35,428 nt of DNA. Source: Candidatus Magasanikiibacteriota bacterium. GTDB lineage: Bacteria; Patescibacteriota; Patescibacteriia; Magasanikbacterales; UBA922. The position numbers and the translations under genes were made by a program. This document shows, piece by piece, positions 1,451 through 32,842 of the stretch (positions are counted from its first letter, which is position 1; each line of letters starts with the position of its first letter). The stretch lies in contig CAILTG010000060.1 of NCBI GenBank assembly GCA_903837125.1, positions 1-35,428 of the forward strand. The letters are read 5' to 3'. The notes under the pieces are model-generated. The model searched no databases, had not been told where the DNA came from, and saw only the letters and a program-made list of their open reading frames with translations.

Positions 1451-1572
1451 CGTAATCCTGAGTCCACAGACGAAGGATCCCTTTCCAGTAAATTTTAATT
1501 GGCGTTAAAACTAATTATTTTTTTGCACCTATTTTTATGTTAAAAAGGGATTTCTCGCTACGCTCGAAATTT
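1451..1572. repeat. Paired inverted repeat element, copy A
   Basis: Two G+C-containing arms, 1451-1486 and about 1543-1572, face each other across an A+T-rich core of about 55 nt. The inner edges read GGATCCCTTT and AAAAGGGAT, and the outer edges TAATCC and CTCGAAAT. The same plan recurs at 11288-11409 and 28711-28813. The TAG stop of the HIT gene lies in the right arm, and the start of the NUDIX gene sits just beyond the left arm. It resembles a small non-autonomous inverted-repeat element (MITE/REP-like); no transposase is nearby. Confidence 0.7.
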
Positions 1573-8201: not shown

Positions 8202-9362
8202 TTAACAATTCAACAATAAGGCATTTTTAAGTGCTTCAACATCTCCAGGTTTGATCAAACTTTCTTTGTTAACTAATTCCGCCACTCCCCCGGTATCTGA
8301 AGCAATAATCTTTAAACCATATTTTTGCGCTTCTAAAATAACCGTTGGGCGATTTTCCAAACAAATTGACGGAAAAATTAATACATCAGAATTTTTATAA
8401 ATTTCTTCCAATTCTTGACCTTCCAATCGGCCTAGAACTTTAATATTAGAATATTGTTTAGCCCATTTTTTAACTTTATCTTCCAAAATGCCAGAACCAA
8501 CGATATTAAGTGAAACAACCTGAGATTGCTTCGTTGCCTGCGACGGCTCCTCGCAATGACATAATGCATCCCACGCCTGCATTAAAACACCAACACCTTT
8601 GTGTTCAACCAAAGATCCTACAAATAAAAATTTGATATTTGAATTTTGGATTTGATTGGAAATTGGAAATTGAAAATTGGAAATTTTTTCAACCTTCCAT
8701 TCACTTCGTCCAAAAAAACCTCTGCTCTTATAGAAATTCTTTAAAAACTCTGACGGCGAAATAACCAAATCCGGATTCCCCATTCTCCATTTCATTATCC
8801 AACTGTAAATTTTTTGATACCATTTATCTTTAGTGTGATTCCAGGGCAATACGCCACTTGGCTCAACCAGCTGCACATCGTGCAGATAATGAATCCACTT
8901 AATATCAGACTTAACGGACTTTAAGACTTTATCCCGATTTTGCTTTCGAGCAAAATAGAGGATCCTCGATTTCGTCACAGCGAAATCGGGATAACTTCCC
9001 ACACCCATCAAATTGTGAGTTTCAATAACATTTGGTATTTCTTGTTTTAAAATTTTATAAATAATCCTTGCACTCCAAAAATTAAAAATATCAATTTTGT
9101 GCCAAATTAACTTAAACAAAAAATTATGCTTGACTAAATCTTTATACCAACATAAATTGGGAACATAAAAACGATAAATTACAACTTTACCATCATTTCC
9201 AATTTCTGGCTTCAACGACCTCAATCCCTGATAAGGACGGCTAGTAATAATCAAGACTTCATTTCCTTCTGCCGCATACTTTTTTGCTCGTTCCTCTACC
9301 ACTTTTTCCGCCCCACCAACAGCATAAGGTTTGTATAAATTGTTTATTAAACAAATTTTCAT
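8202..9362 (-). CDS. Glycosyltransferase family 4 (GT-B fold)
   Basis: The 386-residue cytoplasmic enzyme starts KICLINNLYKPYAVGGAEKV, the N-terminal GT4 signature with the glycine-rich loop, and has the C-terminal E-x7-E motif (ENRPTVILE) that contacts the nucleotide sugar. It should transfer a sugar from a nucleotide sugar to a lipid-linked or polysaccharide acceptor; specificity is unknown. I start at ATG 9362; the in-frame extension to 9389 lacks family sequence. Three different interspersed repeats are translated in frame: the 64-nt palindrome (8930-8993), an A+T-rich element (8631-8689) and a CHCEE-type element (8521-8562). The C-terminus stops inside an AATTCAACAA-type repeat, so the last helix appears cut short. 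It may be a degrading but still open gene. Confidence 0.85.
   Translation of the reverse strand: MKICLINNLYKPYAVGGAEKVVEERAKKYAAEGNEVLIITSRPYQGLRSLKPEIGNDGKVVIYRFYVPNLCWYKDLVKHNFLFKLIWHKIDIFNFWSARIIYKILKQEIPNVIETHNLMGVGSYPDFAVTKSRILYFARKQNRDKVLKSVKSDIKWIHYLHDVQLVEPSGVLPWNHTKDKWYQKIYSWIMKWRMGNPDLVISPSEFLKNFYKSRGFFGRSEWKVEKISNFQFPISNQIQNSNIKFLFVGSLVEHKGVGVLMQAWDALCHCEEPSQATKQSQVVSLNIVGSGILEDKVKKWAKQYSNIKVLGRLEGQELEEIYKNSDVLIFPSICLENRPTVILEAQKYGLKIIASDTGGVAELVNKESLIKPGDVEALKNALLLNC
8521..8562. repeat. In-frame GC-rich repeat encoding CHCEEPSQATKQS
   Basis: The sequence from TGAGATTGCTTCG to CCTCGCAATGAC has complementary ends (ATTGC / GCAAT) and inserts CHCEEPSQATKQS into the GT4 protein. It closely recalls the CHCEERSDEAI-type peptides that dispersed palindromic repeats create in other bacterial genomes (recollection, not searched). 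Confidence 0.7.
8631..8689. repeat. A+T-rich CCAATTTCC element inside the GT4 gene
   Basis: Repeated GGAAATT units (GATTGGAAATTGGAAATTG) belong to the same family as 16540-16654, 18211-18265 and 32693-32800. In the GT4 frame it reads ISNFQFPISNQIQNSNI. Confidence 0.75.
8930..8993. repeat. 64-nt palindromic element, copy 1 (inside the GT4 gene)
   Basis: Ends TATCCCGATTT and AAATCGGGATA are inverted, with a GAGGATCCTC palindrome at the centre. A near-identical copy lies at 29234-29296. On the minus strand it is read in frame, adding about 21 residues (YPDFAVTKSRILYF, then ARKQNRD) to the glycosyltransferase. Confidence 0.88.
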
Positions 9363-9447
9363 AACGAAATTATAATTAAAATTAGCCAATTTTGCAAGCT
9401 TTTAAAACTATCAACACCTTCCCCACACTCTACCCCCAATTGAACGG

Positions 9448-10987: not shown

Positions 10988-11290
10988 ATGTTCAACAAGC
11001 TCAAACAGTTCCGCGACATGCGCTCACAGGCAAAAACTCTTCAAAGTAAATTAGCTGACGAATCAGTAACAGTTAACACAGTAGGTAATAAAGTGGTCAT
11101 GACTATGGATGGAAACTTAAATTTGACCGCCCTAGCAATTGATGACGAATTAATGTCTCCTGATAAAAAAGACAAACTTATTAGTGGTATTAAAGATGCT
11201 CACGGGGATGTTATGAAAAAAATGCAGCGCATTATGGCAATGAAAATGAAGGAAATGGGCGGACTGCCACATATTCCTGGGTTGTCATAA
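10988..11290 (+). CDS. YbaB/EbfC family nucleoid-associated protein
   Basis: A 100-residue protein with the family pattern: an N-terminal helix rich in K/Q (MFNKLKQFRDMRSQAKTLQ), a central beta segment (VTVNTVGNKVVMTMDGNL) and a C-terminal Met-rich helix (KKMQRIMAMKMKEMGGLP). Family members are dimers that bind DNA. It precedes recR, the usual ybaB-recR pairing, although dnaX, the customary third partner, lies 5 kb away here. Its TAA stop is the first triplet of a repeat element arm (11288). Confidence 0.9.
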   Translation: MFNKLKQFRDMRSQAKTLQSKLADESVTVNTVGNKVVMTMDGNLNLTALAIDDELMSPDKKDKLISGIKDAHGDVMKKMQRIMAMKMKEMGGLPHIPGLS

Positions 11291-11409
11291 TCCCGAACGA
11301 AGTGAGAGATCCCTTTTTTAATGCACAAATAATTGCATTAAAATAAGTTTTTCTTAATATAGATTTAAACCCTTGGAAAAGGGATCCCTCGCCTGCGGAC
11401 TCGGGATTA
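11288..11409. repeat. Paired inverted repeat element, copy B
   Basis: Left arm 11288-11319 (TAATCCCGA ... GAGAGATCCCTTT) and right arm 11377-11409 (AAAAGGGATCCCTCGC ... TCGGGATTA) form an inverted pair around a core of about 57 nt rich in A+T. This is the clearest of three copies. It contains the ybaB stop codon and ends 8 nt before the recR start. Confidence 0.8.
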
Positions 11410-16539: not shown

Positions 16540-16654
16540 TTAAAATTTCAAATTACCAATTTCCAATGTCAAATCAATGACAAATACCAAAAATTCAATT
16601 TGATATTTGAATTTAGGTTTTTTTTGGAAATTGGAAATTAGGATTTTGTAATTT
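16540..16654. repeat. A+T-rich inverted element in the dnaX leader
   Basis: The left part (AAATTTCAAATTACCAATTT) and the right part (GGAAATTGGAAATTAGG) are roughly inverted copies. The reverse complement of the right half of the purN-purH spacer shares long matching runs with the left half here (TCAAATTACCAATT, CAAATCAAT), so they are one family. Confidence 0.7.
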
Positions 16655-18210: not shown

Positions 18211-18265
18211 TACAAATTTCAAATTAATAATATCCAATTTCAAATTAAATCCAAAATTCCAATAT
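18211..18265. repeat. A+T-rich CAAATTTCAAATTAAT element before the C39-like gene
   Basis: TTTCAAATTAATAATATCC then AATTTCAAATTAAATCC and AAAATTCCAATATC belong to the TTTCAAATT/CCAATTT family. The element occupies the place where the start codon of the next gene would be expected. Confidence 0.65.
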
Positions 18266-19197
18266 CTATATTATTTGCTGCTATCGGCAGTGTTTTTTTA
18301 TTTTTTCCTAACAAAATTTTTGCCACAACTCTTGAGGTGCCCTTTACTTCCCAAGCTCCTGCTGGAATTTGGATTCAACCGTGGCAAGACGCTTGTGAAG
18401 AAACTTCTATTGCTATGGTTGATAGTTTTTATACAAACCAAACAATTACCAAGCAAAATGCCAAAGCAAAAATTTTACATATTTTTGATATTAAAAATAA
18501 CTTTTTTGGCAAAAGTTTAGACGAGAATACCGAAGAAATAACCAGTTTAATTAATAATTTTCTAGCTTGGTCAGCCACTACTACTGTTGACCCAACACTT
18601 GATCAAATAAAAAATGAACTTGATAAGGGTCATCCGATAATTATACCAGCCTACGGTAAAGCGCTCCACAATCCTAATTTTCGCTCTGGCGGGCCATTTT
18701 ATCATGTTTTAGTAATAAAAGGATATGATGATGAAAAACAGGAATTTATAACCAATGATCCAGGTACTCGTCGTGGCCTTGACTTTCGCTATTCTTATGA
18801 TACAATCATGAACGCCATTCATGATTTTTTACCAAAAAAACAAACAGCCAATGGCCAAAAAGTGATGATTTTCACTTCACCAGAACTAGGAAATACAGCA
18901 CTGATTGATGCAGATCGAGATGGACTTAATAAAGTTGATGAATTAAAATATGGCACAAATCCTTGGCAAATGGATACTGACCATGACGGTTTTGCAGATG
19001 CCGCGGAAGTAATCAGTGGCTATTCCCCTACTGTGGCAGAAGCAAAATTAAAAAATGGCACCTTTATTAAAACAATAGATAATGGACAAATTTATCAATT
19101 AAAAAATGTAACCAAGCACCCAATTGTAAATATTCCCAAAAATACTAAAATTATTGTGGTGAGTAATAAATTTTTAGATTCTTTAACAATAAAATAA
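18256..19197 (+). CDS. Exported C39-like cysteine peptidase with Ca2+-binding repeats
   Basis: The core fits the peptidase C39-like fold: Cys in QPWQDACEETSIAM, His in GGPFYHVLVIKGYDD, and ND in FITNDPGT. Downstream are two EF-hand/thrombospondin-3-like loops, DADRDGLNKVDE and DTDHDGFADAAE. The first conventional start in frame is GTG 18337, but it would cut off a signal peptide. The frame is open back to 18211 and encodes ISILFAAIGSVFLFFPNKIF ending in FA-TTLEV, a good hydrophobic segment with a cleavage-like site. No ATG, GTG or TTG lies in frame there, so I set a provisional start at ATT 18256. An A+T-rich repeat covers the region. The protein probably acts outside the membrane on peptides. 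Confidence 0.7.
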   Translation: MPISILFAAIGSVFLFFPNKIFATTLEVPFTSQAPAGIWIQPWQDACEETSIAMVDSFYTNQTITKQNAKAKILHIFDIKNNFFGKSLDENTEEITSLINNFLAWSATTTVDPTLDQIKNELDKGHPIIIPAYGKALHNPNFRSGGPFYHVLVIKGYDDEKQEFITNDPGTRRGLDFRYSYDTIMNAIHDFLPKKQTANGQKVMIFTSPELGNTALIDADRDGLNKVDELKYGTNPWQMDTDHDGFADAAEVISGYSPTVAEAKLKNGTFIKTIDNGQIYQLKNVTKHPIVNIPKNTKIIVVSNKFLDSLTIK

Positions 19198-27757: not shown

Positions 27758-28719
27758 ACTATAAATTAATAATTGAACAAAATCTAAATAATTGTCTCAC
27801 CGCCACCAACTTAAATATTGGTAACAAAAAAATAGGTAAAGTTCGTGACACTTATGAATTGTCCGACAAAATGATTTTAATTACCACAGACCGTCAAAGC
27901 GCCTTTGATCGTATTTTAGCCTCTGTGCCATTTAAGGGGCAGGTGCTAAACCAAATTAGTGCTTGGTGGTTTGCCCAAACTAAAAATATTATTTCTAATC
28001 ATGTTTTAGAAATTCCTGATCCTAATGTGACAGTAGGTAAAAAATGCAAAGTTTTTCCAGTGGAATTTGTGGTTAGAGGCTACCTGACAGGTTCAACAGA
28101 CACTTCAGTGTGGATAAATTATCAAAAAGGTGTTCGTGAATATTGTGGTAATACTTTACCTGAAGGAATGAAAAAAAACCAAAAATTTATTAAACCAATT
28201 GTCACACCCACAACAAAATCAACTGAACATGATCGTCTAATAACACCAAATGAAATTGTGGCTGAAAAACTAATGACACAAACTGAATGGGATTATGTAA
28301 GTAGTAAAGCTTTAGAATTATTTATTTTTGGACAAAAAATTGCTCTAAAAAACAATTTAATTCTAGTGGATACTAAATACGAATTTGGCAAAGATGCCAA
28401 TGGAAATATTTTATTGATTGACGAAATTCATACTCCAGACTCCAGCCGTTATTGGTTGGCCAATACTTATGAAGAAAGACTTAATAATAATCTTGAACCA
28501 GAAAATATTGATAAAGAATTTTTACGACTTTGGTTCAAAGAACATTGTGATCCATATAATGATGAAAAGCTTCCCGAAGCTCCGGCTGAACTGGTAATTG
28601 AACTTTCAAATAGATATATTCAACTTTATGAAATGATCACTGGTGAAAAATTTGTTTTTCCAACTGGTAATATTAATGAAAGATTGAAAAATAATCTCGA
28701 ACCGCTCATTAAGCGGTGA
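27754..28719 (+). CDS. purC: SAICAR synthetase PurC
   Basis: PurC couples CAIR and aspartate with ATP. The 321-residue protein has GKVRDTYELSDKMILITTDR, SAFDRILASVPFKGQVLNQI, EFVVRGYLTGST and the acidic segment LIDEIHTPDSSRYWL. It is longer than the roughly 240-residue Bacillus form and closer to the 300-residue yeast Ade1 type. It starts within the purQ stop (ATGA overlap). Its last codons and TGA stop fall in the left arm of a repeat element, so the extreme C-terminus (LIKR) may be repeat-derived. Confidence 0.96.
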   Translation: MNYKLIIEQNLNNCLTATNLNIGNKKIGKVRDTYELSDKMILITTDRQSAFDRILASVPFKGQVLNQISAWWFAQTKNIISNHVLEIPDPNVTVGKKCKVFPVEFVVRGYLTGSTDTSVWINYQKGVREYCGNTLPEGMKKNQKFIKPIVTPTTKSTEHDRLITPNEIVAEKLMTQTEWDYVSSKALELFIFGQKIALKNNLILVDTKYEFGKDANGNILLIDEIHTPDSSRYWLANTYEERLNNNLEPENIDKEFLRLWFKEHCDPYNDEKLPEAPAELVIELSNRYIQLYEMITGEKFVFPTGNINERLKNNLEPLIKR

Positions 28720-28813
28720 GAGATCCCTTTCCCTAAATTTAACCTAACTATAAAGTACAAATCTTAATTTTAATTTCTGCGCGTCAAAAAGGGATTCCTC
28801 ACTACCGCTCGGA
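28711..28813. repeat. Paired inverted repeat element, copy C
   Basis: Left arm AAGCGGTGAGAGATCCCTTT (28711-28730) and right arm AAAAGGGATTCCTCACTACC plus GCTCGG (to 28811) face each other across about 55 nt rich in A+T. It lies between purC and purE and contains the purC stop. Confidence 0.7.
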
Positions 28814-28824
28814 ATAAAAAAAAT

Positions 28825-29211: not shown

Positions 29212-29233
29212 ATCAACCAAATTTATCTAACTT

Positions 29234-29296
29234 TATCCCGATTTTGCTTCGAGCGAAATCGAGGATCCTCGATTTCGTCACAACGAAATCGGGATA
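29234..29296. repeat. 64-nt-type palindromic element, copy 2 (purF leader)
   Basis: TATCCCGATTT and AAATCGGGATA flank a perfect inner palindrome centred on GAGGATCCTC (CGAAATC arms). It nearly fills the 103-nt purE-purF spacer. It differs at only a few positions from 8930-8993. As RNA it would fold into a long hairpin just upstream of purF. Confidence 0.9.
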
Positions 29297-29314
29297 AACT
29301 TTTAACTATCACCT

Positions 29315-32126: not shown

Positions 32127-32728
32127 AATTAGCAATACTTGGCTCAACAAAAGGCACCGACCTACAAGCAATTATTGAGGCCATAAAAAATGGAAAATTA
32201 GATGCCAAAATTGAAATAGTAATTAGTAATAAGGTGGATGCTTATATTCTTGAACGCGCTAAAAATCACAAAATAAAATCAATTTTTATAGACCCGAGCT
32301 TGCCCGACGGAGCGAAGCAGAGCCGAGAAGAATATGACCAAAAATTAATCAACAAATTATCCAATCACCAAATTGACTTAATTTTATTGATTGGCTGGAT
32401 GCGAATTTTTTCGTCGGTATTTATTAATCAATACCGCGGACGAATTATCAATGTCCACCCTTCCTTACTTCCCGCCTTTGCTGGTGGTATGGATTTAGAT
32501 GTTCACGAAGAAGTAATTAAATCAGATGCAAAAGAAACTGGTTGTACTGTTCACTTGGTAGATGAAGGAGTAGATACTGGAAAAATTTTAGTTCAAAAAA
32601 AATATTTTGTTGAATCAACCGATACTCCGGAAACTTTAAAAAATAAAGTACAAAAATTAGAGGGCGAAGCGCTTATCGAAAGTATTAGATCATTTAATTT
32701 CAAATTTCCAATCAATGATAAAATCTAA
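32120..32728 (+). CDS. purN: GAR formyltransferase PurN
   Basis: PurN transfers formyl from 10-formyl-THF to GAR. The protein (202 residues from ATG 32120) has LAILGSTKGTDLQAI, the catalytic IINVHPSLLPAF (Asn, His) and VDEGVDTGKI (Asp). I prefer ATG 32120 (MIKLAIL) over 32111, which would add MIY from a tandem repeat. Between IFID and SREEYD an insertion of about 9 residues (PSLPDGAKQ) is encoded by a G+C-rich repeat-like segment (32293-32327). The C-terminus (FNFKFPINDKI) is encoded by the A+T-rich repeat that follows. Core motifs are intact, so it may still work. Confidence 0.93.
   Translation: MIKLAILGSTKGTDLQAIIEAIKNGKLDAKIEIVISNKVDAYILERAKNHKIKSIFIDPSLPDGAKQSREEYDQKLINKLSNHQIDLILLIGWMRIFSSVFINQYRGRIINVHPSLLPAFAGGMDLDVHEEVIKSDAKETGCTVHLVDEGVDTGKILVQKKYFVESTDTPETLKNKVQKLEGEALIESIRSFNFKFPINDKI
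32293..32327. repeat. G+C-rich repeat-like insertion in purN
   Basis: CCCGAGCTTGCCCGACGGAG then CGAAGCAGAGCCGAG contrasts sharply with the A+T-rich gene around it, and CCCGAG..GAGCGAAGC resembles the arms of the paired elements. It is read in frame. Confidence 0.55.
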
Positions 32729-32800
32729 ATTTCAAAAAAATATTTTGGAATTAGTCATTTGATATTGATTTGGCATTGGTAATTGGTAATTTGACATTTT
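32693..32800. repeat. A+T-rich inverted element between purN and purH
   Basis: The left half (TTTAATTTCAAATTTCCAAT) and right half (GGTAATTGGTAATTTGACAT) are approximately inverted around AAAATATTTTGG. Same family as 16540-16654, in the opposite orientation. It encodes the last purN residues and its stop. Confidence 0.75.
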
Positions 32801-32842
32801 ATACCAACATTTTATAAATTCTAAACAAAAAAACTCCAACTT

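Follow-up and report, generated by a model that had tools for sequence, protein, structure and literature searches.

Repetitive extragenic palindromes (REPs) tagged with CGTC, which include the Rickettsia repeats RPE-4 and RPE-6 and Neisseria dRS3, have been reported without associated transposase genes, and their dimers and intragenic copies, including copies in uvrA, are already known (PMC3733652). Azospirillum, Neisseria and Bradyrhizobium are CGTC-positive according to Di Nocera et al. 2013 (PMC3733652). Such repeats are widespread, in Rickettsia and other bacteria also within genes, and a nuclease partner would answer how they spread. The window analysed here, a stretch of 35,428 nucleotides (nt) from a Candidatus Magasanikiibacteriota bacterium (contig CAILTG010000060.1), contains three elements at gene junctions, named A (1453-1572), B (11288-11409) and C (28692-28817). 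We consider it probable that these loci are non-autonomous, selfish repeats, built like REP dimers (REPIN-like) and behaving like Rickettsia palindromic elements (RPEs), which would spread by nuclease cutting at their hairpins followed by repair. A GIY-YIG gene found inside such hairpins, belonging to a clade that we call GFTKKY, is a good candidate for the long-missing spreading enzyme of this repeat class.

In the relatives G029 and G020, a GIY-YIG open reading frame (ORF) lies between the same arms as those of the window, at about 423 nt end to end (L110 781-1203 and L141 851-1274, respectively). The enclosed ORF encodes 125 amino acids (aa) in G029 and 119 aa in G020 (Pfam PF01541, 5e-15), and the C-terminus of the protein is encoded within an arm. 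The neighbours of the two elements are unlike, namely a BNR-repeat-like protein and frr in G029, gatA and a LOG-like gene in G020, and despite these unrelated sites they have one arm in common, without a mismatch over about 27 nt. Additionally, the GIY-YIG gene in G014, G019 and G044 is flanked by arms that have the GATCCCTT inner part of the window arms. The residues Y15, Y25, R35, H39 and E72 were invariant in all 8 aligned members, as in a GIY-YIG nuclease. The short elements would most simply be ORF-less versions of this longer, GIY-YIG-carrying element.

Relatives of the protein were sought in 84,980 species genomes and picked by protein similarity, not by their flanks, which gave 80 named loci from many phyla, more than 10 of them from Bradyrhizobium. 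Inverted repeats were sought between 150 nt upstream and 200 nt downstream, a score of 16 defining a strong one. Strong flanking inverted repeats were present at 41 of the 80 GIY-YIG loci, compared with 0 of 800 identically laid out windows from those loci, 0 of 807 neighbouring ORFs and 15 of 400 cross-locus pairs. The flanking repeats are palindromes of the CGTC type, an example being CGTCATTCCCGCGAAGGCGGGAATCCAG on either side of the gene. Among 59 relatives the GFTKKY clade is set apart by score, most of its members lying above about 75 bits and the other proteins below about 60. A GTCAT-type motif stood on both sides of 31 of the 45 GFTKKY genes in the relatives, some of whose loci had helped to suggest the hypothesis, and at 47 of the 80 named loci, compared with 2 of 397 background windows. 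The other GIY-YIG clades were rejected as partner, with the motif on both sides in 0 of 34 genes (Fisher p 2e-11 for 31/45 against 0/34) and some inverted repeat of other sequence in 4 of 34. The GFTKKY clade is specifically associated with CGTC-type palindromes across phyla.

Different flanks were seen at other small GIY-YIG genes. The non-GFTKKY genes at L364, L368, L375 and L157 carry another inverted flank, e.g. GCCCCTCACCTATGCCTTTA and TTTACCCCGTTAGATA, which is possibly a second palindrome system. A further small GIY-YIG clade adjoins tRNA genes (L153, L159, L163, L166 and L167), with partial tRNA duplications at L163 and L153, which suggests a different GIY-YIG element using tRNA genes.

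Short, long and empty forms were compared in other bacteria. Each of five Bradyrhizobium genomes gave 13-33 matches to the strict REP pattern, many as tight inverted dimers, and three of the five (G060, G062 and G063) have one more pair, spaced about 315 nt, with the GIY-YIG gene between its members. At one orthologous junction the long form is found in B. huanghuaihaiense (L195) and an ORF-less dimer in B. uaiense (L197). Downstream of groEL, Bradyrhizobium genomes carry the complete element, facing one way or the other, or have a truncated ORF, a short dimer or a lone arm there, or are empty, groEL being multicopy so that not every one of these loci is proven orthologous. Azospirillum lipoferum 4B carries the GIY-YIG gene with CGTC dimers on both sides, between sufB and sufC, and in Neisseria gonorrhoeae the gene is flanked by CGTC-type repeats.

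GIY-YIG enzymes are classic homing nucleases. The main rival explanation takes the GIY-YIG gene for a homing endonuclease gene that uses REP dimers as a landing site, cutting them and gaining a copy there, the REPs themselves being spread by something else; it would accommodate an ORF that sits within dimers, an orientation that varies between species at one orthologous site (L301 compared with L307) and a window genome that has REPs and no such gene. The recurrence of GFTKKY genes with GTCAT-type palindrome flanks across many phyla argues against it, as do the lack of any other enzyme consistently linked to these REPs (PMC3733652) and the absence of a Y1 transposase from the window genome, and we regard homing as rather unlikely. 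Under the preferred reading, mobilisation by the GFTKKY nuclease, this enzyme would recognise the hairpins and cut at or near them, repair from another copy would spread, convert or invert the element, and ORF-less dimers would be carried along.

The hairpin itself was described with R1, a covariance model of the arm built from 26 arms. The arm starts with an AAAGGG tail, followed by an ATYYC/GRRAT stem, a TC/TC internal loop (2x2), a variable and covarying tip stem and then TA; read from the other strand, the boundary is TAAT and the tail CCCTTT. The AT/AT start of the stem is invariant in 26 of 26 arms of the window genome. Compensatory stem pairs within the arm comprise ATCCC/GGGAT, ATCTC/GAGAT, ATTCC/GGAAT and ATTTC/GAAAT, with A-U against G-C in the tip. 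Paired cells within arms reached 98.4%, against 88.7% in shuffled ones, and 31 double-sided changes were counted, against 9.7 in shuffles, 5 of the 7 pairs having changed on both sides; none of 500 shuffles reached the observed values on the main measures.

The arms of one element drift apart, while changes compensate inside each arm. As an element may have two unlike arms, what is conserved is the single arm rather than the entire palindrome: every arm forms a hairpin by itself, and pairing between the arms is not the main fold. The whole element as a single long hairpin or cruciform was rejected, since a long-hairpin fold beats every shuffle in element B only (z -4.3), elements A and C folding as separate small hairpins, and since covariation sits within the arms. 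The copies of the window genome are divergent, about 72% identical, and the outer flanks of the arms present no obvious shared repeat. In G029, other small palindromes, TCCGCCCAGGGCGGA, TCCGTCAGCTGACGGA and CCCGATTCGCATCGGG, take the place of some arm tips (e.g. L126 3003-3039 and L130 1236-1294), which suggests nested insertion or conversion of tips.

An earlier note on this DNA had marked the three window loci and had given them a common plan of two inverted arms around an A+T core. A whole-genome covariance-model search recovered all three (E 1e-5 to 8e-4 per arm) and the plan stood; the bounds were corrected, the first locus to 1453-1572 and the third to 28692-28817, as the latter begins at 28692 and not at 28711, its left arm being a 39-nt hairpin whose first base lies 19 nt before the start noted earlier. 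The features are given below with their R1 scores, which are favoured for the six window arms because these were among the 26 arms of the model.
1453-1484, minus strand: element A, arm 1, hairpin ATCCT..AGGAT, R1 match 46.5 bits
1485-1543, no strand: element A, A+T core, from sequence
1544-1572, plus strand: element A, arm 2, with the HIT-gene stop inside (ORF and Pfam), R1 match 41.3 bits
1558-1965, minus strand: HIT-domain gene, stop codon 1558-1560 within element A arm 2
about 1442: ATG of the NUDIX gene, the next co-directional gene beyond element A
10988-11290, plus strand: ybaB, stop TAA 11288-11290 being the first three bases of element B
11288-11316, minus strand: element B, arm 1, R1 match 46.2 bits
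11317-11377, no strand: element B, A+T core, from sequence
11378-11409, plus strand: element B, arm 2, R1 match 47.2 bits
11418: ATG of recR, after element B arm 2
28692-28730, minus strand: element C, arm 1, long hairpin ACCGCT..AGCGGT, R1 match 43.5 bits, fold z -4.8
28731-28787, no strand: element C, A+T core, from sequence
28788-28817, plus strand: element C, arm 2, R1 match 37.3 bits
28825: ATG of purE, after element C arm 2

The upstream stop codon lies inside an arm at all three loci (HIT gene, ybaB and purC), and the next co-directional gene starts 7 to 10 nt past the far arm at all three, both in line with the earlier note. The left arm of element C encodes the last 8 residues of purC, NLEPLIKR, and its stop TGA at 28717-28719.

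The R1 search of the window genome gave 34 arms, six in the window and 28 elsewhere, which make up 19 elements, mostly inverted pairs, a few being single arms or lying at a contig end. By our reading of the frames around the 19 elements, 14 lie outside genes, with a stop codon in the arm in 9 of them, within about 12 nt in 4 and neither in 1. The genome search with the arms that the note had proposed, counting positions relative to stops, therefore places 13 of the 14 non-coding elements at or near a stop codon and bears out a dispersed family with a 3'-end bias; a specifically intercistronic location is not upheld, 5 of the 19 elements being in frame inside genes. Tolerance of insertions accounts for this position bias no less well, given that a new stop codon can come from an arm. 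The surviving copies would be those that the host tolerates, either at gene 3' ends, where the arm gives the new stop, or in frame in variable protein loops. R1 arm matches in relatives numbered 49 in G029, 13 in G020, 11 in G044 and 7 in G009, and presence of the element is patchy between genera of one family.

The same positions bear on a role in RNA processing or attenuation, which the note had put forward as a possibility. Functional RNA elements at operon junctions, acting in attenuation, processing or transcript stabilisation and kept by selection, would match the strong bias to co-directional junctions and stop codons and the covariation of the hairpins, the latter being expected also if a nuclease recognises the DNA hairpin; the in-frame copies inside coding genes and the patchy presence speak against such a role. 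No sign of it was seen in the sequence: an intrinsic terminator reading was rejected, no terminator-like site being found at 11288-11409, the Rfam scan of the window returned one tRNA only and no family matching the elements, and the hairpin changes compensate within an arm, the two arms of an element diverging. A selected RNA function is the least probable of the explanations weighed here, and its chance is very small.

The five intragenic elements lie in uvrA, comEC and tsaD and, as single-arm copies in variable loops, in pgk and dus, these gene names resting on translations and a composite search rather than on a family scan. The uvrA, comEC and tsaD inserts are absent from most relatives, which have an ordinary short loop instead; these are in-frame insertions in conserved genes, absent in relatives, a behaviour known from Rickettsia palindromic elements and from intragenic REPs. 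Part of a variable loop seems to have given way to the element in comEC and tsaD, the uvrA insertion site is common to G020 and the window genome, and the single arm in pgk stands in for a loop about as long, so that the net length hardly changes. G029 and G020 hold 8 further in-frame copies, among them those in lepA, an Elp3-like gene, polA and uvrA. All 10 full-length intragenic copies listed use the same left-arm reading frame (...SL[SF]...).

The loop of dus (tRNA-dihydrouridine synthase) holds three different repeat-like insertions at one site in G000 L012, G020 L291 and G022 L292; as two relatives have unrelated, repeat-like extra sequence there, such loops are tolerant. The uvrA (L137) and polA (L138) genes of G020 carry other in-frame repeat peptide families, RGSANEALTKQS, VIPAKAGI...RLRGDD and CHAEFISASPKILKRVQDD.

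An inverted hairpin dimer of about 120 nt is also REPIN-like, and the elements could have been moved by a Y1 (RAYT) transposase since lost from the window genome, Y1_Tnp being present in G020 and G029, two arm-rich relatives. RAYT was rejected as partner: Y1_Tnp (PF01797) gave 0 matches in the window genome and is uneven among relatives, with none in G044 and G009 despite their arms. The arms lack GTAG, the defining tag of RAYT-linked REPs, and the Y1 locus L115 is not arm-flanked, its nearest elements lying about 1.7 kb off, other Y1 loci not all having been inspected. We hold past movement by a RAYT to be highly unlikely.

Several points weigh against the reading of the window loci as repeats spread by a GFTKKY nuclease. 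About half of the 80 loci are below the strong inverted-repeat threshold, the Photobacterium record L401, when examined, had no such flanks, and no target-site duplication or exact DNA-level empty site was obtained. The cutting of hairpins by the nuclease is a step that we infer. The window genome, which is 98% complete, has no GFTKKY-clade GIY-YIG gene, so its copies are currently without an identified mobiliser; together with the divergence of the copies, this makes the window-genome elements look like old, orphaned derivatives.

Other repeat families are present in the window. A second palindromic family (TTATCCCGATTTTGCTTTCGAGC...GAGGATCCTCGATTTCGTCACA...GGGATAA) occurs at 8930-8996, in frame in a glycosyltransferase gene (8202-9389, minus strand), and at 29231-29297, between purE and an amidotransferase (purF-like) gene. 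The glycosyltransferase gene seemingly holds three repeat families in frame, SYPDFAVTKSRILYFARK, KISNFQFPISNQIQNSNIKF and CHCEEPSQATKQSQ; the KISNFQFPISNQIQNSNIKF family is A+T-rich, with further copies at 16542-16654, 18214-18284 and 32693-32804.

The chances seem to us evenly balanced that CGTC-type palindromic repeats across bacteria, those inserting in frame into proteins among them, have in the GFTKKY nuclease a dedicated enzyme that mobilises or maintains them. If they do, the palindrome-GIY-YIG-palindrome arrangement would be a second autonomous REP system beside RAYT-REP, with the window elements as its orphan non-autonomous derivatives. A nuclease partner would give the RPE-like 'protein-coding palindromes' a possible mechanism, and a possible function to a common small family that at present has no annotation beyond 'GIY-YIG nuclease family protein'. 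A literature search, with most subscription papers and all preprints outside its reach, found no paper pairing GIY-YIG with REP elements.

Among the known systems, CGTC REPs share with the window arms a short palindrome, the AT/AT stem start, a variable tip and a 3' unpaired tail, and with the window elements a mostly head-to-head inverted dimer, a frequent place 3' of genes and some intragenic copies, including in uvrA. Unlike them, the window arms end T-AAT, without a CGTC, TGTC or CCTC tag (the G029 arms having T[AC]), their tail is CCCTTT instead of CCA, and the elements have a core of about 57-61 nt. Having neither the strict CGTC tag nor the CCA tail, the window arms are CGTC-REP-like and not members, whereas the GIY-YIG-flanking arms of many other genomes do bear the CGTC tag. 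The GIY-YIG gene has window-type arms in the relatives, and in Bradyrhizobium, Azospirillum and Neisseria its arms are true CGTC ones, while Di Nocera et al. described no transposase. REPINs and REPs with RAYT (PLoS Genet 2011, PMC3116915; BMC Genomics 2010, PMC2817692) are alike in their unit of about 100 nt made up of two inverted REP hairpins, in their non-autonomous dispersal and in a companion gene between REPs; they differ in that the GTAG tag is absent from the arms and that the companion here is a GIY-YIG protein and not a Y1 HUH transposase. Rickettsia palindromic elements are alike by behaviour, as a palindromic insert kept in frame inside essential genes, in a host phylum different from the Patescibacteria of the window. 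Finally, the small GIY-YIG proteins of UPF0213/COG2827 (PDB 1zg2, 1ywl) likewise consist of the GIY-YIG domain only, with about 95-125 aa, and the GFTKKY clade is separable from the others by score and is alone in having GTCAT-type palindromic flanks.
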